DNA of 18,871 nucleotides, from the NCBI GenBank assembly GCA_021785795.1, contig JAJYEK010000063.1, positions 1 through 18,871 of the forward strand. The letters are read 5' to 3'. Source of the stretch: Pseudomonadota bacterium. GTDB lineage: Bacteria > Pseudomonadota > Gammaproteobacteria > Acidiferrobacterales > UBA6901. Numbering within the stretch: position 1 is the stretch's first letter; each line of letters opens with the position of its first letter. The notes below the pieces were generated by a model, which had not been told where the DNA came from, did not search any database, and was given only the letters and a program-made list of their open reading frames with translations. The translations under genes and the position numbers were made by a program. This document shows positions 1,515 to 15,610 of the stretch, piece by piece.

Positions 1515-2049
1515 GGCGGACCCGCCCGTCCCGCACAGTCCGATGTCGGGTTTTTGTGCATCGCACCCGCAGTCGTACGTCCTCCCTTTCCAGCCTTGTC
1601 CTGTCCAGGGCCGACCGGCCTGTCCGTTGCCTCGTCAACCATCCACCGCCTGGGATGGCGCTGCAGGCAGGGCATTCCCGACCCTTCCCGTACCGCCGCG
1701 AATCGGCCGGTTTCCCGTCCCGCCTTGCACGCAGGGACGTCTGGCCGGTGTCCTGCGCGCCTGCGACAACTCCCAAGACGGCACCTGTATCCTATGCCTC
1801 CTTTCTGGCGGATGCCAGTGGCGCCCGGGGCCGTTTTCCTTTCTGTTGCGCCGCTGTTGCGGGGCCGGGCGGCGGATTTCCTCACGCGACGCACCGGGGC
1901 CTGTCCGAAGGCGTTTTGCGTCCTTTGCGGGCGAGGCGACTGGTGCCGCGAAGACCGCCCGTTCAGAAGGGATGTCGGGTGGCGTCCTGCGCCTGGCGCG
2001 CCAACCGGGCGGGCAGCAAAAGGATGCAGACTGCGGCCGGCTCCTTCTT
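1515..2049. other. Intergenic stretch, no gene recognised
   Basis: This 535-base gap lies between the MIP channel stop and the adaptor start. Several open frames cross it on both strands, but none shows a family motif, signal peptide or good ribosome site, and their composition is the Arg/Pro/Ala-rich pattern of G+C-rich shadow frames. It must hold the promoter of the adaptor-ABC operon on the minus strand, but I see no convincing consensus and no strong terminator after the channel gene. Confidence 0.5.
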
Positions 2050-2859
2050 TCAACCCGGCGCACGTGGTTCGTCGACCTCCAGGGAGCCTTGGGCCGCGAT
2101 GTCGCCGGCAACGGTCGGCGGGCCCTTGAGTATCCATTCGAATATGACTCCGATCAGGGCACCCACTGTCGGTCCGATCACGTAAATCCAGGTCGTGTGC
2201 AGGTCTCCCCGCAACAAATCCGGCGCCAGCGAACGCACCGGATTCATCGACGCGCCACTGACAGGTCCTGCCCACAGTCCCGCGAGCGCAATGTAGCCCC
2301 CCACCGCGATGGCGCCATTGGTGCCGATGTTGCGGGCCCCCGAGGCGGTTCCCAATATGGTGTTGACAAGCCCTGCGGTCAGCACGATCTCCATGGCCAG
2401 CGCCGCGCCGGCGCTGATCCCGCGCCCGGGCACCGTGGCGCCAATGGCTGCGGCTGCGCCGAACAGGGCCCGCAGGAAGAGAGCCGCCCCGAGGCCCCCG
2501 GTCACCTGGGCCAGCATGTAACCGGGCACGCGCCGCCACGGGAAATTCCGGCGCACGGCAAACGCGAGGGTCACGGCCGGATTGAGATGCGCGCCGCTTA
2601 CCGCGCCCATGAAATAGATGATCGCCATCACCATGAGACCGGGCGCCACGGCGATGTCCGCGACATCCAGTGTCCCCGCGCTGCGGGCCGCAACAATCTC
2701 TCCGCCGGCTGCAACCAGCACCAGGAGAAACGTCCCCCAGGTCTCCGCGAACAGCCGCCGCCACTCGAGCGCGGGATCAAGGAAATCGGGGGCTACCTGC
2801 TTTAAGACCATGTGTCTGCGCAGGGCCGCTGTCTTCAGTTCTTTGCGATGCGATGCCAT
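2050..2859 (-). CDS. MIP-family channel (aquaporin/aquaglyceroporin-like) with an open selectivity filter
   Basis: This is an integral inner-membrane channel of 269 residues. The first pore half-helix has SGAHLNPAVT (NPA at 93-95) and the second has SGASMNPVRS (NPV at 206-208, then Arg209), with the usual six hydrophobic spans around them. The 30-residue N-terminal extension is hydrophilic and basic, unlike the short tail of AqpZ. A manual alignment to AqpZ gives the aromatic/arginine positions as Pro73, Gly194, Ala203 and Arg209. This is much wider than the Phe/His/Thr/Arg of AqpZ and lacks the aromatics of GlpF, so small uncharged solutes or metalloids are as likely as water. The gene starts 64 bases after the PPK2 stop on the same strand and may be co-transcribed. 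A GGGGGAAAG ribosome site precedes the ATG. Confidence 0.9.
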   Translation of the reverse strand: MASHRKELKTAALRRHMVLKQVAPDFLDPALEWRRLFAETWGTFLLVLVAAGGEIVAARSAGTLDVADIAVAPGLMVMAIIYFMGAVSGAHLNPAVTLAFAVRRNFPWRRVPGYMLAQVTGGLGAALFLRALFGAAAAIGATVPGRGISAGAALAMEIVLTAGLVNTILGTASGARNIGTNGAIAVGGYIALAGLWAGPVSGASMNPVRSLAPDLLRGDLHTTWIYVIGPTVGALIGVIFEWILKGPPTVAGDIAAQGSLEVDEPRAPG

Positions 2860-2923
2860 GTCTTTCCCCCGTCAGCCTTTCGGAACCTGGGTCTGCCCGC
2901 AGGATGCGTCCTGGCGTTCCGTC

Positions 2924-3793
2924 CTAGCGGGCGAGCTGTTTGCGTATCGAGAGCAGCTCGCGCTTTCGTTTTGGGCCAAGCCGCGGATAGCTCATGTTCA
3001 ATGTTTCCAGCGTGTCCAGTATGATCCGCGAAATGAGGAGCCGGGCATTTTCCTTGTCGTCTGCCGGCACTACATACCAGGGCGCCTCGCGGGTGCTGGT
3101 AGCCCCCAGGCAATCCTCGTAGGCTTGCATGTACTCCCCCCAGAATTTCCTTTCATGGGCGTCCGACAGGCTGAATTTCCAGTTCTTCTGCGGATCATCG
3201 ATGCGTTCAAGCAGGCGTCTTCGCTGCTCTTCCGGTGACAAATGCAGAAAAAATTTGACGACCCGGGTCCCGTTGCGGGTCAGGTGTTTCTCAAAATCCC
3301 GGATCGAGCGGTAGCGCTGTTGCCAGACGGTGTCTTTCCCGAGAAGTTCCGGCGGAAGCTGCTCGCTGCGGAGAAGCTCCGGATGGACGCGAACGATGAG
3401 GACTTCCTCATAATAAGACCGGTTGAAGATGCCGATGCGGCCACGCTCAGGCAGGCAGCGCGTCGTGCGCCACATGAAGTCATGTTCAAGCTCGGTCTCG
3501 CTTGGATGTTTGAAGCTGAACACCTGGCAGCCCTGCGGGTTTACGCCAGACATCACATGGCGGATGGCGCCGTCTTTGCCGGCGGCGTCCATCGCCTGAA
3601 AAATCAGCAGCAAAGAGTATTGGTGCGACGCGTAGAGTAACTGCTGGAGCGCGCTCAGCCGCGCGATGTCCGCGTCCAGGTATTCACGGTATTGGCTCTT
3701 GGATCGGTAAAGCGGTTTTGTGACCGTCGGCCACGCCTCGAGCCTGACGCGTGTCCCGGCCGGTACGCGGAATTTTTTCGGCTGGATTTTCAT
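2924..3793 (-). CDS. ppk2: Polyphosphate kinase 2 family protein (class III-like polyphosphate:AMP/ADP phosphotransferase)
   Basis: This soluble kinase should move phosphate between polyphosphate and nucleotides. The start chosen is the ATG at 3793 ([13 protein letters not shown]), preceded by AGGGGGTGGA; the frame stays open upstream to 4144, but that stretch is Arg/Pro-rich and unlike the family. The resulting 289 residues match the usual single-domain length. Visible motifs are the Walker A-like [10 protein letters not shown], the lid-side [20 protein letters not shown], the Walker B-like [10 protein letters not shown], and the basic [14 protein letters not shown] followed by [16 protein letters not shown]. 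The SGVNPQG and HDFMWR block is typical of PPK2 class III enzymes, which accept both AMP and ADP; substrate preference is inferred. The MIP channel gene follows closely, so the pair may be one transcription unit. Confidence 0.94.
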
Positions 3794-4350
3794 TCCACCC
3801 CCTGTCGTGGTCCCTACCTGTCGATTGTAGTACCGGATCCTCTTGCGCGCGCCTTCCCGACGGCCGAACCCGCAAACCGCGCCGGCCCGCGGCGCTACAG
3901 AGGGCTCAACCGCGGATTTGGCCGCGCGGGGGGTGTTCCGCAGGTCCCCGGGGGTGCACGGGATCCCCGCGCCCCGCACAAGCCGGCAGAACACCCTGGC
4001 TTGGGTGGTGCCGCCACCTCGTGATCGATCGGCGAACCTCCCGGATGCGAGACCGGCGGGGCGTGGCGCGCCACCGTGCGCCGCTTGCGTGGGGGCAGGG
4101 ACGTCTGCCCGCGATGTTCTCCGCGGTGCTTTTCCGGGACGCATGTCGCCGGTCCGGGCCGACGGACTTTCTGCCAGGGCGTGCGTGATCCAGAGAGGCT
4201 TCAGTGCGACTGAAAGGATGCGGCTTGGCCGATGGCGTTGCGGAAAGTCCTGGATCCGCGAGCCTGACGAAAAAAGAAGCGTGGTGTATCATGGGCGACC
4301 TCATGCACGCGCTTTGCATCCATTCGCCACGCGATCTTCCGGAGACAACC
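3794..4350. other. Divergent intergenic region between ppk2 and the first DUF302-like gene
   Basis: About 557 bases with no supported gene. It should carry the promoters for ppk2 (minus) and for the exported protein starting at 4351 (plus). A CGACTGA at 4207-4213 resembles the -10 element of the ECF promoters found elsewhere in this window, but no GTAAG-type -35 lies 14 bases upstream of it. Open frames here lack family motifs. Confidence 0.45.
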
Positions 4351-4827
4351 ATGCTGAAGAAGATTTTCTCTGTATCCGCCCTGATCGGTCTGTCCGTAGG
4401 CACCGCAGTTGCCTCGCCGACCATCGTTGCCGAACATTTCACCATGCCCGCTGCGATGGCCGCCACGCGCATCAGTCAGCAACTGGCTCAACACCGGTTC
4501 AAGGTGATCGATAATCTCAACGTGATCCCCACTATCCGCAAACACGCGCCCAAGCTGGCAGCCAGGATTCCTGCGAGGATTCAGGCGGAACGTTTGCTCG
4601 TGGCCTGTAATGCGCCTGCCATCGTCGGCTACATGCGCACCAACCTGGCCGCGACCAGTCTGTGCCCGCTGACCATTTCCCTGGTTCAGGAGAACGGGCA
4701 GACGACCGCCTATTATCTGGAGCGCAGTGCGGTCCGCCCGGGCGCTCCCGCCCGCGCAGTCGACCGCGCGGTGCTGGCCTCTTTGCACGCCGCGCAGGTC
4801 GCCGGCCCGAGCAGACTGCGCCCATAG
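4351..4827 (+). CDS. Exported DUF302-like protein
   Basis: This is a 158-residue secreted or periplasmic protein of unknown activity. I start it at MLKKIFSVS, where GGAGA sits at 4341-4345, rather than at the in-frame ATG at 4204, because this start gives a clean signal peptide (about 22 residues, cleavage near AVASPT). The mature part shows the DUF302 pattern: an N-terminal segment with HRFKVIDNLNV, then LLVACNAPAIVGYM, a central CPLTISLVQENG and a YYLERSAV strand. Two cysteines in these segments are not part of the general family signature. It is a likely distant paralogue of the DUF302 protein at 9706-10185, but its upstream region lacks the shared ECF promoter. Family call is moderately sure; function is unknown. 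Confidence 0.75.
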   Translation: MLKKIFSVSALIGLSVGTAVASPTIVAEHFTMPAAMAATRISQQLAQHRFKVIDNLNVIPTIRKHAPKLAARIPARIQAERLLVACNAPAIVGYMRTNLAATSLCPLTISLVQENGQTTAYYLERSAVRPGAPARAVDRAVLASLHAAQVAGPSRLRP

Positions 4828-4850
4828 CCAAACCCGGGAACGGCGGTTCC

Positions 4851-4880
4851 GTCCGGTTGTTCCGGGCGGGACCACCGGAC
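4851..4880 (+). terminator. Hairpin after the DUF302-like gene
   Basis: Twenty-three bases after the stop, GTCCGGT (4851-4857) pairs with ACCGGAC (4874-4880). After a single mismatch, GTTCC (4859-4863) pairs with GGGAC (4868-4872) around a GGGC loop, with one G-U pair. This gives a 12-pair stem followed by TGGTTGTCTG. The U tract is weak, so it may be a partial intrinsic terminator or a 3' stabiliser. Confidence 0.55.
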
Positions 4881-5170
4881 TGGTTGTCTGACGGCGCGGA
4901 CAGTGGTGCATCGGGGCCCCGTGTCGGGGTGCTGGCGTATGCGCCAGAAGGGGTGCGGGCGGGCACTAGGTGTCCTGCGGGGTGGTGGCTCCATCTGCGG
5001 GACACGGATCCTGGCGAGGGAATGCGGGGGCCTTCCCCGTGCCGGCCGATCGTCTCACGGCCGGTCCATACCCTTTCGTGCCCATCGGCGGACCGTCCTC
5101 GTCGCCGGCTGGGCGACCGGACCCGCAGGCCGGGCGCTGCGACCGGCGGGAGGCCGGACGGGGGCGGTCG
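4881..5170. other. Convergent intergenic region between the DUF302-like gene and rhlE
   Basis: No gene is supported. It contains a perfect 6-bp hairpin CTGGCG-TATG-CGCCAG (4932-4947) and several G+C-rich partial inverted repeats close to the rhlE stop. The region is likely just 3' untranslated sequence of the two converging genes. Confidence 0.4.
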
Positions 5171-6433
5171 TTACGCCCTCGATATTCCGCCCGGCCGCGA
5201 TCGGGGAGAAGCCCGTTTGCCACTTTGTCCCTGCGCAGGACGCCTCTGATCCCTGCGGCTGTCCATGCGCGGTTGCGCGATTGGTTCTGCCGGCCGGGAA
5301 GAGCTTGGCGCGTAGCCGGGGATCACGACTTGCGGAATCTCCCGTTTGAGCATTTTCTGAATGTCGGCGAGCAGCCTGTGCTCATCTGCGCATACCAGCG
5401 AGACCGCCGCGCCCTCGTTGCCGGCCCGTCCGGTACGACCGATGCGGTGCACATAGTCCTCTGGTACATGGGGCAGCTCGAAATTCACGACATGCGGCAG
5501 CTGGTCGATGTCCAGTCCCCGGGCGGCCAGATCGGTGGCCACCAGTACGCGCACCGCACCCTGCTTGAAGTCGGCCAGTGCGCGGGTACGCGCTGTCTGA
5601 CTCTTGTTGCCGTGAATGGCGGCTGCGCTGATGCCGTCGCGTTCCAGCTGCTGGGCCAGGCGGTTGGCTCCATGTTTGGTGCGGGTGAACACCAGCACCT
5701 GCCCCCAGTCACGGGTGCCGATCAGAAACGACAGAAGTTCCCGTTTGCGCTCGCGCTCCACCGGATGAACGGTGTGCGTTACACATTCAGATGCCATGTT
5801 ACGGCGGGCAACCTCGATCACCTCGGGCGAATCAAGGAGGCCGCCGGCCAGTTTCCTGATCTCGTCGGAGAAGGTCGCTGAAAAAAGCAGGTTCTGCCGC
5901 TGTTTGGGCAGGGCCGCCAATACACGACGGATGTCGCGGATGAACCCCATGTCGAGCATGCGGTCTGCTTCATCGAGTACCAGGATCTCGATATGCGACA
6001 GATCCACGGTCTTTTGCCCCATGTGGTCGAGCAGACGGCCCGGTGTCGCCACAAGAATATCCACGCCGTCCCGCAGTGTCTCGATCTGCGGCTTTATGTT
6101 GACGCCACCGAACACCACGCCTGAGCGTAGCGGCAAATGCCTGCCGTATGTCTTTACGCTTTCTGCCACCTGAGCGGCCAGCTCGCGGGTGGGCGTCAAG
6201 ACCAGTGCGCGGAGCAGGTGCCGTCCGCTCCCGGAATCGGCGCTTAGCCGTTGCAGCAGCGGCAACGTGAATGCCGCGGTTTTGCCGGTGCCCGTTTGTG
6301 CGCTGGCCATGATGTCGCGTTTATCGAGTATCGTGGGAATGGCTTGCCGTTGTATGGGCGTGGGTTCCGTGTATCCCTGTTCCGAGAGGGCGCGAAGTAA
6401 TGCAGACGAGAGTCCGAGTGTAGCAAATGACAT
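5171..6433 (-). CDS. rhlE: DEAD-box ATP-dependent RNA helicase, RhlE type
   Basis: This cytoplasmic helicase remodels RNA duplexes, acting in ribosome assembly or RNA decay. Domain 1 has the Q motif ([11 protein letters not shown], 20-30), motif I AQTGTGKT (45-52), PTRELA (81-86), TPGR (130-133), DEAD (154-157) and SAT (185-187). Domain 2 has [28 protein letters not shown] and [10 protein letters not shown] (329-338). The basic, Arg/Ser/Pro-rich tail (about 385-420) is the RNA-binding extension normal for RhlE. At 420 residues it is full length. The start ATG has GGAGC nine bases upstream. It stands alone, convergent with the DUF302-like gene. Many rhlE genes are cold-regulated; nothing in the upstream sequence proves it here. 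Confidence 0.96.
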
Positions 6434-6624
6434 AGTGGGTGCTGCTCCGAAACCGGCCTGCCCGCGGCTTGTGCCTTGGGTCGGTGTAGGCAGGAAATGT
6501 TGTTGAGTTCGAGGCTAACCGGTTGGGATGACCGCGAAGAGCTGAGGCGACATACCGAAATGCGCCAGATTTCCCGCCATGGTAACAAAATAGCCAGACG
6601 AATGCTGCAAATCTTTTCCTGGCA

Positions 6625-6647
6625 CTACCCCGTGCGGTGAGGGGTAG
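6625..6647 (-). other. 7-bp hairpin upstream of rhlE
   Basis: CTACCCC (6625-6631) and GGGGTAG (6641-6647) form a perfect stem with a 9-base loop, about 190 bases before the rhlE start. The surrounding 6434-6900 holds no supported gene. The hairpin could be a 5' leader element or an unrelated structure; the strand is a guess. Confidence 0.3.
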
Positions 6648-6924
6648 CCCGCTTCCGCCGGTTGTCCGGCAAGCCGACGGGGCGGTCCCCGCGGCCGGGC
6701 TTGCACGCACCCCCCCGATGTGTATTCGGGCCGCTCTTGTGCTGTTCGTTACTGCCGGCCAATCCTATCTGGGCGCGGGATGGCACACGCGATCGGCGTA
6801 TGACAGCTGCGGATCTTCAGGTTCCGCGAACACGGGCGCCTCGTTTGCGTGCCACCGGGGCCGGGCGTGGCGTTTATCCCCGGGGGTGCTGCCCCGCGGA
6901 TGTTTCCGGGCACGGCGGCCGATC

Positions 6925-6952
6925 GTAAGAAATTCCCGCCCGCAGCGACTAA
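6925..6952 (+). promoter_or_regulatory. ECF-type promoter of the Spy/CpxP-like gene
   Basis: GTAAGAA (6925-6931), 14 bases, then CGACTAA (6946-6952), ending 65 bases before the ATG at 7018. The same two boxes with the same 14-base gap occur upstream of the Cys-rich peptide gene and of the DUF302 gene at 9706. I infer recognition by the ECF sigma factor encoded at 7766. Confidence 0.75.
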
Positions 6953-7017
6953 ACCCCTGCCTGGCGCGGTTTTGGTGAAACCTGGGCAATGCACACAATA
7001 CAACGAGGAGATACACG

Positions 7018-7527
7018 ATGAGAAAAGCAGGGCTTGTGGTGATGGCGGCGGCGATAGCTGTCGGGGGTCTCGGGCTAGGGCGTGCCCAGGCGGCCGATGG
7101 CGCTGCCATGGCCAAAATGCACAGGTATTTCGTCCATCACTCTTTCGGCTTTCCGATGAACTTCTATCGGTTTCACCCTGGGCCACACTGGGATCTCATG
7201 CATGCTTCCGCGCTGGGGCTGACCCCAACCCAGATGCAGGAGGAGAGGCGGCTTACGATGGCCATGATGCGGGATACGATGCGGGGGGTTGCCCGCCTCA
7301 GGCAAGCCTATAGGCGCTATCGGGTCGAGGCACGCCTGCCCAATCCGTCTATCCGGGTGCTTGTCCGGGACGTACGCTCGGTGGGGCGCGCCCAAGCGTA
7401 TCTAGGCTATGAGATGATCCCCTATCATCTAAAAGGCTATCGTGTGCTCGACGCGGCGCAACGGCATGTGTATCACCGCCTTGCGCGCGAAAACTGGATG
7501 CACAGGATGCGCGGTATGCACGGGTAA
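7018..7527 (+). CDS. Exported Spy/CpxP-like His/Met-rich periplasmic protein
   Basis: This 169-residue protein has a signal peptide (cleavage near AQA-AD, residues 25-26). The mature chain has the LTxxQ signature of the Spy/CpxP family as LTPTQ (68-72), followed by long amphipathic helices rich in Arg and Met, including RRLTMAMMRDTMRGV. Histidines and methionines are frequent at both ends (MHRYFVHHSFGFPMNFYRFH near the N-terminus, MHRMRGMHG at the C-terminus), suggesting metal binding or chaperone action on the periplasmic side. CpxP, Spy and the CnrX metal sensor share this fold class. GAGGAG ends eight bases before the ATG. It is preceded by the ECF-type promoter and followed by the sigma-factor gene, so a stress-responsive or sensory role in the same regulon is likely. 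The fold is inferred from LTxxQ and helix pattern only. Confidence 0.75.
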   Translation: MRKAGLVVMAAAIAVGGLGLGRAQAADGAAMAKMHRYFVHHSFGFPMNFYRFHPGPHWDLMHASALGLTPTQMQEERRLTMAMMRDTMRGVARLRQAYRRYRVEARLPNPSIRVLVRDVRSVGRAQAYLGYEMIPYHLKGYRVLDAAQRHVYHRLARENWMHRMRGMHG

Positions 7528-7552
7528 AGGCGCGCCGCGCTACCAGACACAG

Positions 7553-7580
7553 GATGACGCGGGCATTTTCCCGCGTCATC
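7553..7580 (+). terminator. Strong hairpin between the Spy-like gene and the sigma gene
   Basis: GATGACGCGGG (7553-7563) pairs perfectly with CCCGCGTCATC (7570-7580) around a 6-base CATTTT loop, 25 bases after the Spy-like stop. There is no U run after it, so it may reduce rather than stop transcription into the sigma-factor gene 185 bases further on. Confidence 0.65.
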
Positions 7581-7601
7581 ACTGTTCCGGGTGGTCGTGG
7601 T

Positions 7602-7613
7602 GTCACCGGTGAC
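7602..7613. promoter_or_regulatory. 12-bp palindrome upstream of the sigma gene
   Basis: GTCACCGGTGAC is a perfect palindrome about 150 bases before the sigma-factor start, right after the hairpin. It could be an operator for a dimeric regulator. No matching second copy was noticed, so its role is unproven. Confidence 0.3.
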
Positions 7614-7765
7614 TCAGCGGTACTTGCTGTTCCTCTGGCGGCAGCGCGTCCCGGTGGGCGGGTCCCTTGCGTTCGCCGCGATGCATCCCGATAACGCGTC
7701 GCCGTTGCGGGTGCGTGACCCGGTGCCCGCCCTTTAGCCTGACGCTATCCCGATGCAGGACATTC

Positions 7766-8347
7766 ATGCGCCAAGAAACCGATCATGTCGTTGTTTGCGA
7801 ACCCGAAAAATGGCTGGACCGTCACGGCGACGAGCTGTATCGCCATGCTTATTTCCGGATCCGTGACGCGACGGCAGCAGAGGATCTTGTTCAGGAGACC
7901 CTTCTTGCCGCCTGGCGTGCTCGCGCCGGCTTTCGGGGCGCATCCCAGGAGCGGACGTGGCTCTACGGCATTCTGGAGCACAAGATCCAGGACCACAATC
8001 GCCGCAAGGCGCGAACCCCGATTCTGATCGACATCGACACGGACGCCGGGGACGTGAGTACCGACGAAGCCGCCTTCGCGGCAGATGGTTCGTGGGCTGT
8101 CGAACAGAAGTCCTGGGGATGTGATCCACAGGATGCCGTGGAGCGCACGGAATTTCACCGCGCCCTGCAAGATTGTCTCGAGGGGCTGCCCGAGAACCAA
8201 CGAACCGCTTTCGTCTTGCGTGAGTGGCACGGCGAGGACATGTCCGCCTGCGCCACCGTTCTGGCCGTGACACTAAACCATCTTTCTGTGTTATTGCACC
8301 GCGCCCGATTGCAGCTTGCCCTCTGTCTTGGGCGCCGCTTCGCCTAA
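7766..8347 (+). CDS. ECF-family RNA polymerase sigma factor
   Basis: This 193-residue sigma factor should direct RNA polymerase to a small set of promoters. Region 2 is clear: DELYRHAYFRIRDATAAEDLVQETLLAAWR, then the promoter-melting FRGASQERTWLYGILEHKI. A variable acidic linker rich in Asp and Ala follows, then region 4 with ALQDCLEGLPENQRTAFVLREWHGE and a recognition helix near LAVTLNHLSVLLHRARLQL. I chose the ATG at 7766 with AGGA five bases upstream; the frame is open back to 7667, but that part does not resemble the family. The stop is 14 bases from the anti-sigma gene. The type with a short cytoplasmic zinc-finger partner resembles the sigma-E/MseR pair of Neisseria. No copy of the GTAAGRA-N14-CGACTAA promoter precedes it. 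Confidence 0.93.
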   Translation: MRQETDHVVVCEPEKWLDRHGDELYRHAYFRIRDATAAEDLVQETLLAAWRARAGFRGASQERTWLYGILEHKIQDHNRRKARTPILIDIDTDAGDVSTDEAAFAADGSWAVEQKSWGCDPQDAVERTEFHRALQDCLEGLPENQRTAFVLREWHGEDMSACATVLAVTLNHLSVLLHRARLQLALCLGRRFA

Positions 8348-8361
8348 AGGGACCCTCTTTT

Positions 8362-8637
8362 ATGATGAAGCACATTATGCCGTCTTGTTCTGACATTGCG
8401 CGACTGCTGTCTGCGGGATGCGAACGACCCCTTTCCTTCAGGGAACGCGTGGCCCTCAGGGTCCATGTTTTTTTCTGTGTGTCCTGTCGACGTTACGCCA
8501 GCCACCTGCGCTGGATGAAAGGCGCTTTTCGTCTTCTCCACCACAGAGAGAATGCGTTCTCTTTAAACGATGCGGCCAGGGCGCGCATACGCGATACCCT
8601 GAAAAACGCAGCTTCCCGCCTGAGCGACCACGATTAG
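8362..8637 (+). CDS. Short zf-HC2 anti-sigma factor
   Basis: This 91-residue protein has the zinc-binding anti-sigma layout: Cys9, then His35, Cys39 and Cys42 in HVFFCVSC, plus an extra Cys20. The segment ERPLSFRERVALRVHVFFC is typical of zf-HC2 partners of ECF factors. There is no membrane segment, so it should hold the sigma factor in the cytoplasm and release it when the zinc-thiol site is oxidised or metallated. It starts 14 bases after the sigma stop with AAGGGA upstream, so the two genes form an operon. Its soluble nature argues for sensing cytoplasmic redox or metal status rather than direct envelope proteolysis. Confidence 0.88.
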   Translation: MMKHIMPSCSDIARLLSAGCERPLSFRERVALRVHVFFCVSCRRYASHLRWMKGAFRLLHHRENAFSLNDAARARIRDTLKNAASRLSDHD

Positions 8638-8661
8638 CGGCGCCCCGGGCCGCACCCCGTG

Positions 8662-8681
8662 CTGCCGGGCAGGCCCGGCAG
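8662..8681 (+). terminator. Hairpin ending the sigma/anti-sigma operon
   Basis: CTGCCGGG (8662-8669) and CCCGGCAG (8674-8681) form a perfect 8-bp stem with a CAGG loop, 24 bases after the anti-sigma stop. The following bases are not U-rich. A second inverted repeat, CAGGCC-GG-GGCCTG (8724-8737), lies just below the stop of the minus-strand peptide gene and could serve that transcript. Confidence 0.55.
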
Positions 8682-8744
8682 ACCGGTTTGCCACACTCAG
8701 ACAGGACCCCGGCGCAGCGAATCCAGGCCGGGGCCTGCTACACC

Positions 8745-8876
8745 TCAGAACCAGTGCAGACCCCAGTGACCGGCTGCCACGAGCATCAGTATGATCAGCG
8801 CCATCATCATTTTCTCATGAACACACAAGCCTCTGGTGGCACAGCACGACCCCTTTTTCTTGCACATCACCGACAT
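8745..8876 (-). CDS. Cys-rich 43-residue single-span membrane peptide
   Basis: This small ORF encodes a peptide with four cysteines near the start (Cys5, Cys11, Cys12, Cys18, in the MCKKKGSCC region), His20, then a hydrophobic span MMMALIILMLVAAG (23-36) and a short His/Trp-rich tail ending HWGLHWF. It is supported by AAGGAG at 8883-8888, six bases before the ATG, and by an ECF-type promoter 48 bases upstream. The Cys/His cluster suggests a metal or thiol site on one membrane face, with a second possible site at the His-rich tail. It is divergent from the DUF302 gene at 9706 and convergent with the sigma operon. I do not recognise a named family. The combination of promoter, ribosome site and peptide layout makes it a convincing gene. 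Confidence 0.8.
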   Translation of the reverse strand: MSVMCKKKGSCCATRGLCVHEKMMMALIILMLVAAGHWGLHWF

Positions 8877-8924
8877 GACAATCTCCTTGTAAGCGAAAAA
8901 ACCCAAAACCGTTCTTCCGCCCCT

Positions 8925-8952
8925 TTAGTCGCCGCAACACCGCATTCCTTAC
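8925..8952 (-). promoter_or_regulatory. ECF-type promoter of the Cys-rich peptide gene
   Basis: On the minus strand, GTAAGGA (8952-8946), 14 bases, then CGACTAA (8931-8925), with the start codon 48 bases downstream. Box sequences and spacing match the other two promoters except for one A-to-G change in the -35 box. Confidence 0.75.
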
Positions 8953-9159
8953 ACAAGCTCCCGTTCCCCGTACCGTGTTATGAAAGAAATGGTCCCGGCA
9001 CATTGCATATGGGTTGCCCGCAGATGGTTGGTGAAGATTTCACTGGCCCGCAGGCCGGGGGCCAGGACGAACGCCGAATGCATTCTCAGACAGCCGGCAT
9101 ACTGTGCCCGGCCAGAAGACGCTGTTGCCGCGCAAAGCACCGCGCCCTGTAGCCCTGGC

Positions 9160-9189
9160 CCCCTCATCACGTCTCGGCGTGATGAGGGG
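9160..9189. terminator. 12-bp perfect hairpin in a gene-poor stretch
   Basis: CCCCTCATCACG (9160-9171) and CGTGATGAGGGG (9178-9189) pair perfectly around a TCTCGG loop. There is no T run on either side. It lies in 8953-9576, where no protein gene is convincing: an open frame at 9009-9152 ends just before it but lacks a ribosome site and family likeness. It may be the 3' end of a small RNA or a bidirectional terminator. Confidence 0.45.
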
Positions 9190-9576
9190 CCGGCATGCGG
9201 ACGGGCTCCCGCGGCCTGCGTTAGGGCCTTGTCCCTGATATCGCCTCTCGCATCCCTGAATGCGCGCTTGCGCGCCTCCCTGGGTCTTGTCCGGATCTGC
9301 GCGGGGGTCAGTCAGACGACTTTTTTCTTATGAAGGGCGGTGGTTCCCGGTCCAGCCCCTGCCGGTCGCGATGTCCACCGAAGTGCCTTCTGGCGCCCGC
9401 AGCCGGCCACGGCCTTCTCCGTAAAGCCGTCGTGCGCCGCTACCTTCGGCCGCTTACCCCGCCCCCAGGATTGCCGCCAAAGGGAGGCGGCGACTATTGT
9501 CATAGGGGTGGCCGCGCCGTCCTCCGCAGAAAAACCCCGGGGTGCGACGTCCATGATGGCAAATCGCCGCACCTTT
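9190..9576. other. Intergenic region before the second DUF302 gene
   Basis: Apart from the 9160-9189 hairpin at its left side, I see no supported gene here. Open frames on both strands are short, lack ribosome sites and show no family motif. A CTTAC at 9447-9451 on the plus strand gives a GTAAGCG on the minus strand, but no CGACTAA follows at the right distance. Confidence 0.4.
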
Positions 9577-9604
9577 GTAAGAATCCGTCGTGCGTTTCGA
9601 CTAA
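9577..9604 (+). promoter_or_regulatory. ECF-type promoter of the DUF302 gene
   Basis: GTAAGAA (9577-9583), 14 bases, then CGACTAA (9598-9604), 101 bases before the ATG at 9706. It is identical in both boxes to the promoter at 6925, while the 14-base spacers differ, as expected for a sigma-specific promoter rather than a duplicated segment. Confidence 0.75.
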
Positions 9605-9705
9605 CATGACGGATCCCCTCAAGGGGCCTCGCCAAAGCGGCCGTGCTCGGCCCGGCCAAAGCTGCTTAGCGAAAAGCTTCCACTACGACAAACAGGATAA
9701 TAAAC

Positions 9706-10185
9706 ATGACTATTCGCACCACACACACTAACAGCTGGATTCACCGCGCGGCTCTCGGCGTCCTGGTTATAAGTTCAGTGTTGGCGCCGCCGACCTTCGC
9801 GGGCGAGGGACATTTCGTGCGGGTCGTTTCACGCCATCCGTTCGCGGGCACCGTCGGCGCCCTGAAGAAGGCCGTGGCGCGCAATCACATGATGGTGATG
9901 GGGCAGGTCAATCAGAGCAAGGTTCTTGCCATGACGGGCCTGCGCCTTCAGGGCGAGGCCTTTCTCGTAGGAAACCCTGTAATGGGCAAAAACGCGTTCC
10001 GCGTGGATCCTGCAGCGGGCGCGGTGTTGCCGGCGCGAATCTATGTCTGGACACAGGGTGCCAACACCTACATTGGCTACTTCGAGCCATCCTCTCTCCT
10101 CACGCAAATTTCACCCCGCCTCGGCATGATGGGTGGCTTGCTGAACAAGAAGTTTGCCAGGGTTGCCCGCGAGGCGGCGCGGTAA
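9706..10185 (+). CDS. Exported DUF302 family protein
   Basis: This 159-residue protein has a signal peptide (hydrophobic core ALGVLVISSVLAPP, cleavage near TFAGE). The mature part carries the DUF302 pattern: FVRVVSRHPFAGTVGALKKAV, MVMGQVNQS, then EAFLVGNPVMGKNAFRVDP, ARIYVWTQG and YIGYFEPSSL. A C-terminal helix ends KKFARVAREAAR. It should act in the periplasm; DUF302 proteins have no settled biochemical role but often sit beside stress or metal genes. AGGA lies eight bases before the ATG. The upstream promoter matches those of the Spy-like and Cys-rich peptide genes, which places it in the proposed ECF regulon. Confidence 0.85.
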   Translation: MTIRTTHTNSWIHRAALGVLVISSVLAPPTFAGEGHFVRVVSRHPFAGTVGALKKAVARNHMMVMGQVNQSKVLAMTGLRLQGEAFLVGNPVMGKNAFRVDPAAGAVLPARIYVWTQGANTYIGYFEPSSLLTQISPRLGMMGGLLNKKFARVAREAAR

Positions 10186-10224
10186 AAGCCCAAGAAACAC
10201 AGGCTGGGACGCGCGACGCCGCTT

Positions 10225-10780
10225 GCCTTCAGGGTATCGGCAACTGGCATCATCGGCCTGCGCACCCGGGGCGACATCGCCGTCGGGCCGGCAGTTGCCA
10301 TCCGGCTTGCGATTGCGGCCATCGCGCGCGGGGCCGGCCGGCACAACCTCGGCGCCACCGTGCGGCTGGCTCCCTTCGCCGGCATCGCCGGTACGGTGGT
10401 CATGGAGGTGGTGGGAATAACCGGCTTTCGTGTCGCCCCTGGCATGCCTGGTTCTTTACCGATGCCGCTTGGCGTGCTGCTGACAAACCGGTTCATGGCA
10501 GGGCCGAACCGGGTCTTGAACCTGATAGGCCGGGAAGATCATTTCGGGAACGGCATCGGTCTTGCGTTCATCGACTTCGCCGCCTCGGGCCGCCAACGCT
10601 GGTGGGCAGGTTTTCTCTGCGCCCTGAGTGTCGCCACCCTCTTCATGCTGCGCCCCGAGATGATGTTCCGGGCATCAACCTCTTTGATGCAGGATTGCCG
10701 GCCGGTGAAAGTTCCCGTGACGGGACTGCGCATTGCTTCCTGACCATGGTCGAAACCCTGGCTAGAAGCCGGCTGCTTTG
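10225..10780 (+). pseudogene. Frameshifted membrane protein relic (DUF6789/YagU-like)
   Basis: The frame continuing from the DUF302 stop reads a hydrophobic, family-like protein: ATGIIGLRTRG, LAPFAGIAGTVVMEVVG, FRVAPGMPGSLPMPLG, REDHFGNGIGLAFIDF, WWAGFLCALSVATLFMLRPEMM. There is no ATG, GTG or TTG before 10360, so the natural start is lost. Near 10660 the likeness moves to the next frame, which reads DVPGINLFDAGLPAG and continues past the first frame's stop. The layout (methionine-rich first span, HFGNGI central helix, WW-G third span, G-LFDAG-P loop) resembles small four-span membrane proteins of the DUF6789/YagU type. Family identity is tentative; the decay is better supported. It could once have been part of the DUF302 transcript. 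Confidence 0.5.
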
Positions 10781-11211
10781 CGCGACGCAGGTGTCGCGCG
10801 CCGGCGCTGTGGCATCGGATCTTGCTCTCGCCCCCTGCGCCCAGTCGTCATGGCTTATAACGCGGAAGATCCTTAAAAGAACATGATCGCCCCTGTTGAT
10901 CACCGATCCGGCAGGATGTGTACGGATCCCGCATGGCGTTGGGCGATGTGTATATAAAAATCACCCTGACCGGCGACGTGTTGACCGTGTCGTTCAAGGG
11001 CCGGACCATGCAGCGTCCCGTACGTCGCAGTACGGCTGGATTTCTGTCTCGCGCCGATCAAATCGGGTGATTGCCCCCTCAGTTGTCGTCTCTGCTGAAA
11101 CTCGCCAGACAACACCGCACAACACCTTCGCGCATCACCTCCCGGCCGGCATAGCCCGCCGATAGCTCCGTCGCTGCCGCCGCCTCGCGCTCGCCAATCA
11201 GGGCGCAGCCT
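10781..11211. other. Intergenic region downstream of zwf
   Basis: No supported gene. A perfect 6-bp inverted repeat CCGTAC-GTCGCA-GTACGG (11018-11035) lies about 180 bases after the zwf stop and may help end the gnd-zwf transcript. Short open frames on both strands have no recognisable features. Confidence 0.4.
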
Positions 11212-12663
11212 TCAGGCGGAAGTGGCACCGGCACGTCGCGGGTTGTGCCAGGAACCGTCTCCCACAATCAGTGTGTCCGCCTGTTTTGGCCCCCAGGTGC
11301 CCGGCTTGTAGGGGTGCGCGGGATAGTGCGTTTTCAAGACCGGCTCTACCACCGCCCAGGCAGCTTCTATCGCATCCTCACGGGTGAAGAGTGCGCCATT
11401 ACCGGCCATCGCATCCCCCAGAAGCCGCTCATAGGGTGTTTCTTTGTTCGACTGCTCGTTCAACAGGTACAGTTCCCGCTGGTCGCCGACGAACTCCTTG
11501 CCGGCACGCTTGACCCGTGCCGCAATGGCGACTTCCGCGTTCGGGGAAAGCCGGAAACGCAGGTAATTGGCATGTCCATCCACCGGCGCAGAATCATCGA
11601 ACAACCTTTGCGGAGGTGGCTTCAACTCCACCAGCACCTCGGCCGCCGAAGTCGCCAGGCACTTGCCGGAACGCAGATACCACGGCACGCCCTGCCATCG
11701 CCAGGAATCGATAAACAGTCGCAGGGCACAGAACGTCTCGACGTCCGATCCGCTTGCCACTCCCGGCTCTTTCCGGTAGCCCACGTACTGGCCGCGCACC
11801 AGGTCCTCTGGCTGCAAGGGGCGCATGGCCCGGAACACCTTGGCCTTTTCGCTCTGAACGGCCCCATAGCCCTGGTAGGCCGGCGGCTCCATCGCCAACA
11901 ACGCGGTAACCTGGAACATATGATTCTGAATAACATCGCGCAGACAACCGGCGCTTTCGTAAAACCTTCCGCGACCCTTTACACCGAAATCCTCCGCCAG
12001 GGTAATCTGGATGCTGGCCACATAATTACGGTTCCAGATCGGCTCGAGAAACGAGTTGGCGAAGCGGAAATAGAGGATATTCATGATCGCCTCTTTCCCG
12101 AGATAGTGATCAATACGGAAAATCGAGTCTTCTTCAAACGCCGATCGCGCAATACGATTGAGCGCCCGCGCCGAAGCCAGATCGCGCCCGAACGGCTTTT
12201 CTATGATAACCCGCGCCTGCTCCGACAGCCCGGAAGAGCCAAGCCCTTCGATGACCTTCGGGAAAAGTGCGGGGGGAATGGCCAGATAATGCGCGGGACG
12301 CCGCGCAGTACCAAGCGCCTGTTTCAGGGCCTTGAATGTCTCGGGGTCGTTGTAATCACCCCCCACGTACTGCAGCAGGGAAAGAAGGCGGTCGAAAGCG
12401 GCGCGGTCATCGATCTTGCCTGCTTGTCTGATGCTGTCCCTCGCCCGTTTCCGCAGTTGCGGCAGACTCAGCTGCGAGCCCGCCACGCCCACCACCGGTA
12501 CGCTGAGCGCACCCCTTCTGACCATCGCATAGAGCGCAGGAAAGATCATTTTGTGCACAAGATCACCCGTTACACCAAAGATCACCAGTGCATCCGCCGG
12601 CGTCCTGCGGTCAAGGACAGGGGCCACCTCAGGGCTTGCCTTTCTTTTCTTCGTGTCCACCAA
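11212..12663 (-). CDS. zwf: Glucose-6-phosphate 1-dehydrogenase
   Basis: This cytoplasmic enzyme oxidises glucose 6-phosphate to 6-phosphogluconolactone with reduction of NAD(P)+, the entry step of the oxidative pentose phosphate pathway. At 483 residues it is the usual length. The nucleotide-binding GVTGDLVHK (30-38), EKPFGRD (155-161) and the active-site RIDHYLGKE (183-191, with the catalytic His in DHY) are intact, as are WYLRSGK and the C-terminal [18 protein letters not shown]. The start at 12663 lies inside the end of gnd, with a 35-base overlap, so the two are co-translated. No 6-phosphogluconolactonase gene is next to them. Coenzyme preference cannot be read with certainty. Confidence 0.97.
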
Positions 12664-13648
12664 ATTGTTTCCTCATTGCAGACAGGACCCGGTTGGCATA
12701 ATCGGCATCGCCGCGCGAAGAAAAACGCTCAAACAGCGCCGCGCTGATAACTGGCGCCGGCACGCCCTCGTCGATGGCGGCCAGTGCCGTCCAGCGTCCT
12801 TCGCCCGAATCCGACACACGCCCCGAAAACCCGGCGAGACCAGCATCCTTGACCAGTGCGGCTGCAGTCAGGTCGAGCAGCCAGGACGCCACGACGCTCC
12901 CACGTCGCCAGACTTCCGTAATCTCGGGCAGATCCAGATCATACTGATAAAATTCCGCGTTGCGCATGGGCGCGGTCTCGGCATCGCCATCGCGCGAGCG
13001 CTTGCCGACATTGGCATTGCGGAGAATATTCAGGCCCTCCGCATACGCGGCCATCAGCCCATATTCGATTCCGTTGTGAACCATCTTGACGAAATGTCCG
13101 GCACCGTGCGGACCGCAGTGCAGATAGCCCTGATCTGCGGTGCCTGCAGGCTTTTCCCGACCCGGCGTCGGAGTTGCCGCGCCAACACCCGGAGCAAGCG
13201 TGGCGAAAATTGGATCAAGGTACTGAACGATGTCCTTCTCGCCGCCGATCATCAGGCAATAGCCGCGCTCGAGTCCCGCGATGCCACCGCTGGTACCCAC
13301 GTCCACATAATGCAGCGCGCGCTTTTGCAATTCATAAGCCCGGCCAATATCGTCGCGGTAGTAGGAATTGCCACCGTCGATGACGATGTCTCCTGCTTCG
13401 AGCAGCGGCACGAGCTCTGCTAGCACCTCATCTACAACCGTCGCCGGCACCATCACCCAGACCACACGTGGCTTGGTCAGACGAGCGACAAACTCGTCAA
13501 GAGAGTTTGTGCCAACGGCACCTTCGCTGCTGAGCGCCTTGATGGCATCGGGATGACGGTTGTAGACCACGCATTGGTGTGCCCCCCGCATCAGTCGCCG
13601 CGCCATATTACTGCCCATACGCCCTAAACCCATCATGCCAATCTGCAT
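12629..13648 (-). CDS. gnd: 6-phosphogluconate dehydrogenase, decarboxylating (short GndA/YqeC type)
   Basis: This enzyme converts 6-phosphogluconate to ribulose 5-phosphate and CO2. At 339 residues it is the short type, lacking the large C-terminal domain of the E. coli enzyme. The Rossmann GLGRMG (7-12), [10 protein letters not shown] (91-100), [21 protein letters not shown] (substrate loop, about 116-136) and [14 protein letters not shown] with the catalytic Lys188 are all present. Short types are often NAD-dependent and carry an acidic residue at the end of the second strand; here the position reads YNRHPD (Asn30-Arg31), the pattern of NADP-specific forms. AAGGAAG lies upstream of the ATG. 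The gene heads the gnd-zwf operon. Confidence 0.95.
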
Positions 13649-14050
13649 CTCTAGGCTTCCTTGTTTGACGTGGGTAAGTCCGACCCCGCCCGCTACCGCG
13701 CTGCTGCCGCTAGAGCCGATACCGAGGGCAGGGTCCTACGAAAACACAGTTTCCGGCGTCATGCCCATGATCGATCGTGAGGCATCGCACGATATCCACT
13801 CCGCCCACGTGAGCCTGGTCCGCATCGGTAACAGGGCATGTGGAGTCCTGGTCATGCGCGGCCCGCCTTGTTCAGGGGTGCCATCGGCTATTCCGGATTG
13901 GCTGTCACGTGTTCTAAACCGCAGGCGGCAGCTTGTCCATCCGCTTCAGGGAGAGCACTAGTGTAGCCCTCCGTTCTGTTTGGCACCAAACCGCCGATCG
14001 GCCGGGATTATCTTGCGTGGGACGCTGCCCGTCCCGGCAGCCCGGATGAG
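13649..14050. other. Intergenic region upstream of gnd, with a short palindrome
   Basis: No gene is supported. It should hold the minus-strand promoter of gnd-zwf, which I could not identify. GTTTGG-CA-CCAAAC (13978-13991) is an inverted repeat whose core, TTTGGCACCAAA, reappears in reverse complement at 14578-14589 before the RHH antitoxin relic. Confidence 0.4.
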
Positions 14051-14059
14051 CGGCCTTGG

Positions 14060-14500
14060 GTTTCGTTGTGCGCGGCTGTGTATTCTTCAATGGGGGTCGT
14101 GAGTTGGGGCACGCTCACCGACACCCGCACAATGAGCGGTGGCGCCGGTGGCAATACGAACTGGAATTTCCTGGGCGACGGAGACGGCATCGTCGTGGCG
14201 GCGGGGGCGCCACGATTGATAACACGACGACCGCCTGATCAAAGGCGGCCCCCGGCTGCTTGTCACCGGCGCGGGCGATCAGGGCACCACCGGCGGATCG
14301 GCGATTGGCGACGCGGTCGCCCCGGCCGACGCGGTCGGTTTCTCGGGGGCGGCAACTCCCTGAAACTGCTGGCGGGTTCCACGCTGACTGCCAACGTGGC
14401 CAGCACCTCAGGGTGCCGCGAATGGGGGTGACACCTTACAAGATGTCGCCCGGATTTGTCTGTTACCCATAACGGGGCCGGCTTTTCTTCAACCCGAGCG
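14060..14500 (+). pseudogene. Autotransporter/adhesin-like passenger relic
   Basis: Fragments typical of repetitive autotransporter passengers appear in three different plus frames in order: WGTLTDTRTMSGGAGGNTNWNF and GDGDGIV, then GGATIDNTTT, then LLVTGAGDQGTTGGSAIGDAV, then GGNSLKLLAGSTLTANV, then GAANGGDTLQ, then DLSVTHNGAGF. Their order and spacing suit one ancestral protein broken by several frameshifts and stops. No signal peptide or beta-barrel domain remains. The identification rests on composition and the GNSLKLLAGSTLT/GGDTLQL-like repeats. Confidence 0.5.
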
Positions 14501-14573
14501 TGGCGGCCGCACCCAATGGCGAGGTGGTTAATATGCGGGTTGGCACGCAGGCCGGATACGCCGCATCCTGAAC

Positions 14574-14593
14574 CCATTTTGGTGCCAAAATGG
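14574..14593. promoter_or_regulatory. Palindromic operator before the RHH antitoxin relic
   Basis: CCATTTTGG-TG-CCAAAATGG is a perfect 9-bp inverted repeat with a 2-base centre. It ends 11 bases before the ATG at 14605. Ribbon-helix-helix antitoxins bind such palindromes to repress their own operon. Confidence 0.55.
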
Positions 14594-14604
14594 TCGGACA
14601 TACA

Positions 14605-14709
14605 ATGCCCGCCACGCTAACCTCGAAAAACATCCCCGACGAGGTCTACAAGCGCCTGAAAGCAGCGGCAGAGGCACATCGTCGTAGCGTGAACAGCGAG
14701 GCCATCGTC
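14605..14709 (+). pseudogene. FitA-like ribbon-helix-helix antitoxin, truncated
   Basis: The first 35 residues (MPATLTSKNIPDEVYKRLK, then AEAHRRSVNSEAIV) match the N-terminal DNA-binding part of FitA/VapB-type RHH antitoxins, usually about 75-80 residues. Beyond codon 35 the likeness stops abruptly where a TGTCA-beginning element end starts (14710); the frame runs on without meaning to 14805. The toxin-neutralising C-terminus and any downstream PIN toxin are gone. A palindromic operator remains upstream. The remnant could still bind DNA, but no function as an antitoxin is expected. Confidence 0.65.
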
Positions 14710-14766
14710 TGTCATGCCCCGATGGCCAGGTCAAACTGCCCCACTTGTGGCCGGGCAAACTGCTCC
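14710..14766. repeat. Terminal end of a TniB-type element with direct repeats
   Basis: The element seems to begin with TGTCATGCCCC at 14710. Two direct repeats follow, GGCCAGGTCAAACTGCCCC (14724-14742) and GGCCGGGCAAACTGCTCC (14749-14766), 25 bases apart. Multiple short repeats inside a TGT...ACA end are typical transposase-binding sites of Tn7/Tn5053-like and related ATPase-assisted elements. The other end was not found. Confidence 0.55.
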
Positions 14767-14782
14767 AGGCAGGACAATGGAA

Positions 14783-14914
14783 TTATGACGCCTGTTTGGG
14801 CGTGAATGCTATACGGGCTGCGGCCTCCTTCAGCTCAAGGAATTCGCTCAGGGCGATCACCGCCTCGTCGGGCAGATCGCGGAAATCGATGAAGCCCGGT
14901 TCTTCGCCATGCAT
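14783..14914 (-). CDS. Small 43-residue accessory ORF of the TniB-type element
   Basis: The protein starts MHGEEPGFIDFRDLPDEAV, continues as an acidic helix with ALSEFLELKEAAARI and ends FTPKQAS. AAGGAG lies seven bases before the ATG at 14914, so it looks translated. It overlaps the end of the ATPase frame and lies just inside the element end with the direct repeats, which makes it the last gene of the element. I do not recognise a function. It may be an intact passenger of an otherwise broken element. Confidence 0.55.
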   Translation of the reverse strand: MHGEEPGFIDFRDLPDEAVIALSEFLELKEAAARIAFTPKQAS

Positions 14915-15610
14915 GGTGGCACTCCTTTGGGCTTCAGGTCAGTGGGCAGCCCGCGCACGGCGCGGATGGGCCGGCCGTAGACCTCGAGGTAGAGTTTCTC
15001 GTCCAGGGTCATGATCTCCTGGCGCGCGGCGCTCATCAAAAGCTCCGAGCCCATGCTGGCGAGGATGCGGTAATTGCCGGCGGCATGATCGACGAGGGTT
15101 GCGCGCAGCCCCTCTGTCATGAGGCCGCCGTTGCCGGCGCAGGCGAGCAGATGGTCGAGGGCCGCCGAGAGTTCCTCGCGGGTGGCCGCCTCCAGGCCCA
15201 GGCGCGTCCTGATGCGCGAACCCAGGGGAACGAGCTCCTCGCGCTTGAGCTTCTCCAGAAGCCTTCCGTCGCCCGCGAGCACGACGGTAAGCCACGACTG
15301 GGACTCGAAGCGGGCGCTGGCGAGCAGCCGCAGCTCGTTTAGCACCGCAGGACTCATCTCCTGGGCTTCGTCGATCAATAACACCGAGCGTCTTATGGTC
15401 GATCCCAGGTGATCGAGCCAACGGCTGCGCAGCGCCTGGAAACCGCCCCACCGGTTTGAGATACGAATGGCGACACCGAAGATGTCGCCGGGCTCGCGAT
15501 ACCGGAGGTCCCCTGCGGGGAGAAGTCCGAGAGGTTGCTGCTCGGATGGTGGACGACGCCGACGGCGAGATCGGCCAACCGAGAGTATGCACTCCATAAA
15601 CCGCACCCTC
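14857..15610 (-). pseudogene. TniB/ExeA-like AAA ATPase of a transposable element, frameshifted and truncated
   Basis: These ATPases help a DDE transposase choose its target. From about 15500 down, one frame reads GDIFGVAIRISNRWGGFQ, the Walker B VLLIDEAQEM, a sensor-like LTVVLAGDGRLLEKL, and the lid with GSRIRTRLGLEAATREEL and AGNYRILASMGSELL. Upstream, the likeness is in another frame: ADLAVGVVHHPSSNLSDF, directly before a 20-base insertion-like stretch (about 15504-15523) containing CCCC-GCA-GGGG. Removing it would join SDF to YREPGDIFGV. No Walker A remains further upstream. The gene is therefore broken twice: a frameshift and loss of the nucleotide-binding loop. Family likeness is good; the 20-base event is inferred by reading frames. 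Confidence 0.7.

Follow-up and report, generated by a model that had tools for sequence, protein, structure and literature searches.

A probable small ECF sigma factor regulon behind three GTAAGRA-N14-CGACTAA sites in an Acidiferrobacterales genome

Genes and promoter-like sites of the locus

The locus lies on contig JAJYEK010000063.1 (C43) of assembly GCA_021785795.1 (G000), from a gammaproteobacterium of the order Acidiferrobacterales. Positions 1 to 18,871 of the contig were analyzed and are termed the window; its assembly contains 1,829,257 bases in 117 contigs and is 80% complete. A compact block of the window encodes an extracytoplasmic function (ECF) sigma factor, a soluble zinc-finger anti-sigma factor, a small secreted protein that is weakly Spy-like, a Cys-rich micro-protein, and a secreted DUF302 protein (Table 1). 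It also contains three exact matches of 28 bases each to the motif GTAAGRA-N14-CGACTAA. These three promoter signals around the ECF gene are very probably real, because they recur with the same ECF family elsewhere, often ahead of genes whose products bind metals, handle thiols, or repair oxidation.

All three sites are outside the five genes, and each is upstream of and faces one gene start (Spy-like, 7018; Cys-rich peptide, 8876 on the minus strand; DUF302, 9706), as an earlier sequence-only reading of the window had described. That reading also held that the sites are not copies of one segment, and alignment of their spacers and flanks, which differ, rules out such an origin. With as many as three mismatches allowed, the window yields no fourth site. 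At one mismatch or fewer, the assembly contains three sites, all exact and all inside the window, versus two sites, none of them exact, for the reversed pattern that serves as the motif control. On base composition the assembly would be expected to hold 0.009 exact sites, a figure that disregards the post hoc choice of the motif. The looser core GTAAG-N16/17-CGACT occurs four times in the assembly and its control also four times, so the signal resides in the full motif. One additional looser-core site, C57:11487, was not adopted as a regulon member; no envelope gene was recognized by eye around it, where no family search was made. A sigma-70 scan returned one promoter-like and four terminator-like sites, which is not above shuffle level.

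The sigma factor and anti-sigma factor both exceed Pfam cut-offs, in agreement with the sequence-only reading. The best NCBIfam model for the ECF protein is TIGR02943, at 144.9 bits and under the curated cut-off of 162.2. The anti-sigma gene begins 14 bases past the ECF stop codon, and its product matches NF052368 (62.8 bits, cut-off 50) and lacks a hydrophobic span by eye, as signal sequences and membrane spans of all window proteins were judged. Its Cys and His residues are arranged as C9-x25-H35-x3-C39-x2-C42, a spacing kept in 63 of 64 relatives, and it has no DUF1109/NrsF match at E≤1.

The target identities of the sequence-only reading stood for DUF302 and for the Cys-rich peptide, whereas the label 'Spy/CpxP-like' for the product of the gene at 7018 is weak. 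That protein has no Pfam match at E≤1 and scores 14.9 bits against the NCBIfam Spy model NF007769, far below the cut-off of 174. Its two-sequence structure model is all-helical but of low confidence (mean predicted local distance difference test score, pLDDT, 46) and too poor for a fold search. No solved structure matches the Spy-like protein or the anti-sigma factor by sequence at E≤1. Directly 3′ of the Spy-like gene, before the ECF gene, is a hairpin of 11 perfect pairs that lacks a T run (7553-7580).

In the micro-protein, the Cys residues and the His all precede the single hydrophobic stretch, and a ribosome-binding-like AAGGAG is upstream of the gene. Only the window's own copy was found in a set of 5.8 billion proteins, while translated genome searches do find homologues; such tiny genes are perhaps not called. 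The DUF302 protein model (pLDDT 83) best matches the DUF302 structure 1q9u in the PDB, with a template modeling score of 0.70 by query length, and also matches 1j3m and 7tj1 (titled putative CrcB fluoride transporter). The window encodes a second DUF302-like protein at 4204-4827 (+), which scores 21.7 bits against the Pfam cut-off of 23 and has no motif upstream. Further along is a Phd/YefM antitoxin and PIN-domain pair (17870-18109 and 18112-18537, +).

Table 1. Positions of the promoter-like sites and genes, given in the window unless a locus (L) is named; G denotes a genome.
Feature	Position	Strand	Remarks
ECF-type promoter 1, GTAAGAA-N14-CGACTAA	6925..6952	+	upstream of Spy-like gene; exact counterpart at homologue in G010 (L044)
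Small secreted helical protein, weakly Spy-like, 169 aa	7018..7527	+	Sec-type signal sequence by eye; His/Met-rich
ECF sigma factor, 193 aa	7766..8347	+	Sigma70_r2 and Sigma70_r4_2 above Pfam cut-offs
Soluble zinc-finger (zinc-binding anti-sigma, ZAS) anti-sigma factor, 91 aa	8362..8637	+	zf-HC2 28.7 bits, cut-off 22.2
Cys-rich micro-protein, 43 aa	8745..8876	-	one hydrophobic stretch; C5, C11, C12, C18, H20
ECF-type promoter 2, GTAAGGA-N14-CGACTAA	8925..8952	-	upstream of Cys-rich peptide; exact in G052, one mismatch in G010, two mismatches in G188
ECF-type promoter 3, GTAAGAA-N14-CGACTAA	9577..9604	+	upstream of DUF302 gene; exact in G010 and G052
Secreted DUF302 protein, 159 aa	9706..10185	+	PF03625 35.3 bits, cut-off 23
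G188 promoter-like sites	L179:4400-4427, L180:8959-8986, L181:13542-13569	-	AGACTAA at two genes, CGTCTAA at other ECF locus

Recurrence of the motif with one ECF family

The motif was compared with the ECF family in 57 genomes of the order and 369 genomes of the class, with G000 belonging to both samples. Family presence was defined as a match to profile A1 at E≤1e-30, and co-occurrence p values are hypergeometric. In the order, 10 of 57 genomes contain the exact motif (16 sites; the reversed control gives two sites in two genomes) and 18 contain the ECF family. The sequence-only reading had expected the motif only where the sigma factor is present, and the family was found in all 10 motif genomes (p=1.0e-6). 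One of the 16 sites is within an ECF gene (G017:C52:5380), and all 10 genomes keep at least one site outside.

Sites are within 3.3 kb of the ECF gene in G000, G010, G013, G014, G017, and G052. They are on separate contigs from it in G033, G039, and G050 and about 756 kb away in G031, so synteny alone is insufficient to explain the link between motif and ECF family. The distant site in G031 and G039 is directly upstream of a DUF2282-like gene (by eye) that adjoins an MNIO gene, and that in G033 is upstream of the MsrP gene. In G050 it is at a contig end, where no gene was seen.

The expectation also held for most motif genomes of the class, as 13 of the 15 (21 sites) have the ECF family (p=5e-11). 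The family is present in at least 48 of 369 genomes, a lower bound since at most eight candidates per genome were scored. Removal of G345, whose only site is within an ECF gene (G345:C159:15696), leaves 12 of 14 (p=5e-10), and removal of the window's order as well leaves 11 of 13 (p=3e-9). Here, too, motif and sigma factor occur apart: G261 and one G211 site have them on different contigs, and in G191 and G317 they are more than 100 kb from each other. The reversed control gives 20 sites in 19 genomes, three of which have the ECF family (p=0.46).

The two boxes also recur at a near-fixed distance in 86 loci around ECF genes, a set not completely de-duplicated (L032 and L084 are the same stretch, as are L031 and L063). 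GTAAG and CGACT are separated by N16 in 51 cases and by N17 in 33, and a scrambled -35 box gives none at either spacing; the remaining spacings from 12 to 20 give 0-3 each. Of these 84 sites, 77 are outside the ECF gene, spread over 49 of the 86 loci, and comprise 44 distinct N16 and 32 distinct N17 sequences. Positions that were not part of the search pattern are conserved as well: among the 44 distinct N16 sites, T precedes GTAAG in 90% and the final A of CGACTRA is present in 93%. The -10 box reads CGACT 84 times versus CGTCT four times at these spacings. The exact motif (L108) or near variants of it (L075, L087, L098) are upstream of ECF genes of the same family. The other seven of the 84 sites are within the ECF gene, and those checked (such as L029, L033, L070, and L071) are in its 3′ part, upstream of the anti-sigma gene. 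In-gene sites may be coding coincidences or promoters of the anti-sigma gene; exact or near matches of this type were recorded at L066:5455, L071:5455, L029:1958, L033:1571, and the two in-gene positions in G017 and G345 given above.

The Cys-rich peptide is found in three of the 57 order genomes (G000, G010, and G052; E≤1e-12), with two more matches that are chance-like (E 0.01-0.05). Close DUF302 homologues (E≤1e-66) are in exactly the same three genomes, the next genome being at 2e-12, and all three also have the ECF family. A close Spy-like protein is found in G000 and G010, where it is 67% identical. G010 has the gene layout of the window, with exact sites at its Spy-like and DUF302 genes and one mismatch at the peptide gene (GTAATAA). 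In G052 the gene order is altered, and exact sites are kept at the peptide and DUF302 genes. Sites upstream of homologues had likewise been anticipated by the sequence-only reading: four of the five corresponding promoters (three in G010, two in G052) are exact, one has a single mismatch, and the boxes are conserved while the spacers are not. G052 has a third exact site, L021:8146-8173 (+), which faces away from the peptide promoter; a 341-aa open frame starts at 8903.

Distant Spy-like homologues occur in G004, G007, and G014, with no motif on the gene strand within the 1.5 kb examined upstream, and the sole GTAAG-N18-CGACT in L150 is downstream of the start of the Spy-like homologue. At the thresholds applied, the same-genus genomes G015 and G016 lack the ECF family, the peptide, the close DUF302 protein, and the Spy-like protein, so the module is patchy, as expected of an exchanged one.

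Within the class sample, the peptide is present in two of the 369 genomes. One is the window's own; the other, G188, carries the motif and two copies of the ECF gene. The peptide promoter of G188 reads GTAGGGA-N14-AGACTAA. At 3 kb from one of the ECF genes, a gene judged DUF2282-like by eye is preceded by GTAAGAA-N14-AGACTAA, and the other ECF locus has GTAAGGA-N14-CGTCTAA. The C-to-A change common to two G188 genes is what co-regulation would give, although it is a single case, and the differing boxes hint that -10 recognition has shifted between the two ECF copies.

The first genes behind exact or near sites were also inspected in relatives, and 20 such proteins were scanned against Pfam. 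DUF2282 (bufferin-type) proteins exceed the Pfam cut-off in L018 and L045, with others assigned by eye; EGKCG-repeat peptides have no family match and were also named by eye. ArsS (TIGR04167) exceeds its cut-off behind the motif or a near variant in L141:497-1468 (-) and L052:2847-3932 (-), and ArsS-type radical SAM genes were recognized by eye in L124, L065, and L069. The ArsS-type genes suggest that arsenic handling is under this ECF family. An arsenite methyltransferase-like protein does not reach the cut-off of any ArsM model listed. MsrP (491.9 bits, cut-off 207) and a DsbG-like protein (80.1 bits, under the cut-off of 124) are also behind sites, as are DoxX, AhpC/TSA, a PHO4 transporter, and the ECF or anti-sigma gene itself. 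Seven of the 20 scanned proteins have no Pfam match at E≤0.001 (L137, L079, L105, L064, L095, L127, and L114), and DUF6789, HD, and CMD proteins do not obviously fit a thiol or metal theme. A common theme of thiols, soft metals, or oxidants at the envelope is a reading of the target names. In a zetaproteobacterium, L114:8900-9160 (-) encodes a small secreted-looking NPCNPC-repeat peptide behind GTAAG-N17-CGACT; it has no Pfam match, and a second one is nearby.

The switch is uncoupled from bufferins in the window's lineage, because the genome's own DUF2282 and MNIO (bufferin-type) cluster on C69 (L176:1811-2242) has no GTAAG-N16/17-CGA in the 7 kb stretch read, same-genus genomes without the ECF family also have an MNIO gene, and no MNIO match was found in G010 or G052. 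As G010 and G052 carry the peptide and DUF302 genes, it becomes askable whether the module stands in for bufferins.

Proposed mechanism and alternative explanations

The locus is best read as a small ECF regulon of the sigmaE-MseR/RpoE2-HrsE working type, in which GTAAGRA-N14-CGACTAA is read at three envelope genes, and this interpretation is probably correct. Three elements are demonstrated at the sequence level by comparison across genomes: the gene set, the promoter code, and the association of that code with this ECF family. The comparison likewise supports the sequence-only reading that the local ECF factor reads the three sites and that their genes form one envelope stress module.

In the proposed mechanism, the cytoplasmic zinc-finger anti-sigma factor would hold the ECF factor until its Cys residues are oxidized or taken up by a metal or oxidant that reacts with thiols. 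Such release is expected from the MseR-like Cys spacing, the neisserial-like promoter, and the induction of RpoE2 by HOCl. The freed ECF factor would then bind and start transcription at GTAAGRA-N14-CGACTAA ahead of the three envelope genes. Their products, the Spy-like protein, the Cys-rich micro-protein, and the DUF302 protein, would together probably buffer or repair soft-metal or oxidant damage at the envelope. Transcription from the Spy-like promoter may run on through 238 bases and so exert feedback on the ECF/anti-sigma pair; the hairpin at 7553-7580 stands between that promoter and the ECF gene, on the proposed path.

Several results weigh against this interpretation. Dinucleotide shuffles were searched for a triple of any 7-N(10-20)-7 motif with one wildcard, and when the whole window was shuffled one turned up in 15 of 17 cases. 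In the class, the raw total of 21 exact sites is close to the 20 of the reversed control, so only placement and co-occurrence carry meaning. G112 and G174 have the motif without the ECF family at E≤1e-30 among the at most eight candidates scored per genome. Of the genomes with the ECF family, eight of 18 in the order sample and 35 of 48 in the class sample lack the exact motif. The exact in-gene sites of G017 and G345 also count here, as do near matches within the ECF gene at L029, L033, L034, L036, and L041, which coding constraint could explain.

Since the motif was chosen post hoc and triples are common in shuffles, the window by itself is suggestive only, and comparison with other genomes was needed to decide. 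The shuffles of the whole window are what favor chance, that is, three near-repeats noticed after the fact. However, when the 2.7 kb block is shuffled a triple turns up in only 3 of 137 cases, and in G010 and G052 the sites recur at homologous genes although their spacers differ; given the co-occurrence tests as well, chance is scarcely credible and is held refuted short of a systematic error in those tests. The motif could instead be all or part of an operator for a repressor or activator with the ECF gene merely its neighbor, as a two-box pattern could be bound by another regulator. This is quite unlikely: the boxes lack palindromic symmetry and agree with the known neisserial sigma-E promoter in the -35 core, the spacing, and six of seven -10 letters (PMC2893595), and the exact motif tracks the ECF family in trans in G033, G039, G050, and G031 and, in the class, in G261, G211, G191, and G317. 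Only marginally less unlikely is that the sites are read by another of the genome's ECF factors or shared by several. G112 and G174 favor it, and Caulobacter sigmaF, another ECF type with similar targets, uses a related -35 box (PMC3511200). It is opposed by the strong co-occurrence with this one family, by the motif or near variants ahead of the family's own ECF genes, and by the altered AGACTAA box that is identical ahead of two G188 target genes.

A more serious alternative, less probable than the soft-metal or thiol signal but a substantial minority view, is that the regulon is real and answers to something else, such as acid or general misfolding of envelope proteins. The metal or thiol chemistry of the window's targets is not proven, a Spy-like protein would suit envelope misfolding, and meningococcal sigmaE was not induced by H2O2, diamide, or singlet oxygen (PMC2893595). 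Against it, the family's targets include the DUF2282 bufferin type, ArsS, and arsenite methyltransferase-like, MsrP, DsbG-like, and AhpC-type proteins, the anti-sigma factor is cytoplasmic and Cys-rich, and RpoE2 answers HOCl (PMC7907618).

The regulon yields a promoter code, open to direct testing, for an ECF family whose anti-sigma factors are soluble zinc-finger proteins. The code ties together by position genes that are usually studied apart (DUF2282, EGKCG/oxazolin-like peptides, ArsS, MsrP, DsbG-like, and AhpC-type), and it assigns a setting to three uncharacterized families: the DUF302 subfamily, the small secreted helical protein, and the Cys-rich micro-protein. A broader and distinctly tentative proposal is that the near-fixed code TGTAAGR-N15/16-CGACTRA might be the plug-in thiol and soft-metal switch of one zinc-finger-controlled ECF family in Gammaproteobacteria, Zetaproteobacteria, and Planctomycetes. 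In this lineage, the usual bufferins made by MNIO would then have given way to an unmodified Cys-rich micro-protein of 43 aa that sits in the membrane and binds metal, partnered by the DUF302 and Spy-like proteins.

Comparison with known systems

Meningococcal sigmaE (NMB2144) and MseR (NMB2145) are an ECF sigma factor and a small zinc-finger anti-sigma factor (PMC2893595), and the likeness to them rests on the published consensus and residue positions. In both systems the ECF gene is followed by a small zinc-finger anti-sigma gene, and the Cys/His spacing is identical: in MseR the residues are Cys4, His30, Cys34, and Cys37, of which Cys34 is essential for activity, Cys4 and Cys37 matter, and His30 is dispensable in the assay. 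The neisserial consensus is GTMAGBWTT, 12-13 nt, CGTCTAAH. Its -35 box resembles GTAAGRA, and its spacer corresponds to 12 nt here by the same count. The -10 box differs by one letter, since all three window sites read CGACTAA (six of seven the same). The targets also differ: meningococcal sigmaE controls msrAB and NMB2140-2143 (a DoxX-like protein and hypotheticals), whereas the window has the Spy-like, Cys-rich micro-protein, and DUF302 genes. No msrAB or DoxX/DUF692 operon is behind the three window sites, with msrAB not searched in the rest of the genome; the genome's own DUF692 gene is on C69, with no motif in the 7 kb stretch read. Meningococcal sigmaE is in its own autoregulated operon, while no motif is directly upstream of the window ECF gene.

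RpoE2 of H. influenzae, paired with the 67-aa HrsE, is induced by HOCl and drives msrAB and a DoxX cluster (PMC7907618). By description, the pair shares with the window a small cytoplasmic ZAS anti-sigma factor paired with an ECF factor, co-transcribed in H. influenzae. The H. influenzae regulon, which combines genes for repair in the periplasm with a DoxX/UPF0276/DUF2063 cluster, is a further likeness in kind, but the individual target genes in the window are others.

Caulobacter sigmaF, with its anti-sigma factor NrsF, controls DUF2282, DUF692, DUF2063, DoxX, and YedY genes in a heavy-metal response (PMC3511200). A small regulon and a GTAA-type -35 box are shared. However, the Caulobacter anti-sigma factor is a six-span membrane protein (DUF1109) instead of a soluble zf-HC2 protein, and the promoter is GTAACC-N16-CGAA.

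Bufferins are MNIO-modified ribosomally synthesized and post-translationally modified peptides, and their clusters (PMC12452194) are linked to this family in that the motif or near variants precede DUF2282 and EGKCG-type genes in ECF relatives. They differ in that no bufferin gene is behind the three window sites, and the anti-sigma factor of Buf1 clusters is named there as NrsF, not as a ZAS protein. Cupriavidus RpoQ-RsqA resembles the window as an ECF system that adjoins copper- and gold-induced gig genes (PMC10304878). RsqA is predicted to be membrane-bound, unlike the anti-sigma factor here, and no promoter upstream of gig was identified in that work.

The sequence-only reading knew of no description of this set as a system. 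That stands for the combination of Spy-like protein, Cys-rich peptide, and DUF302, which was not found in searches of open-licence papers, a weak absence; nor was TIGR02943 found there as a sigma factor. It does not stand for the sigma/anti-sigma pair and promoter, which closely resemble sigmaE-MseR and RpoE2-HrsE. The working type is therefore already known, and the target set appears to be new.

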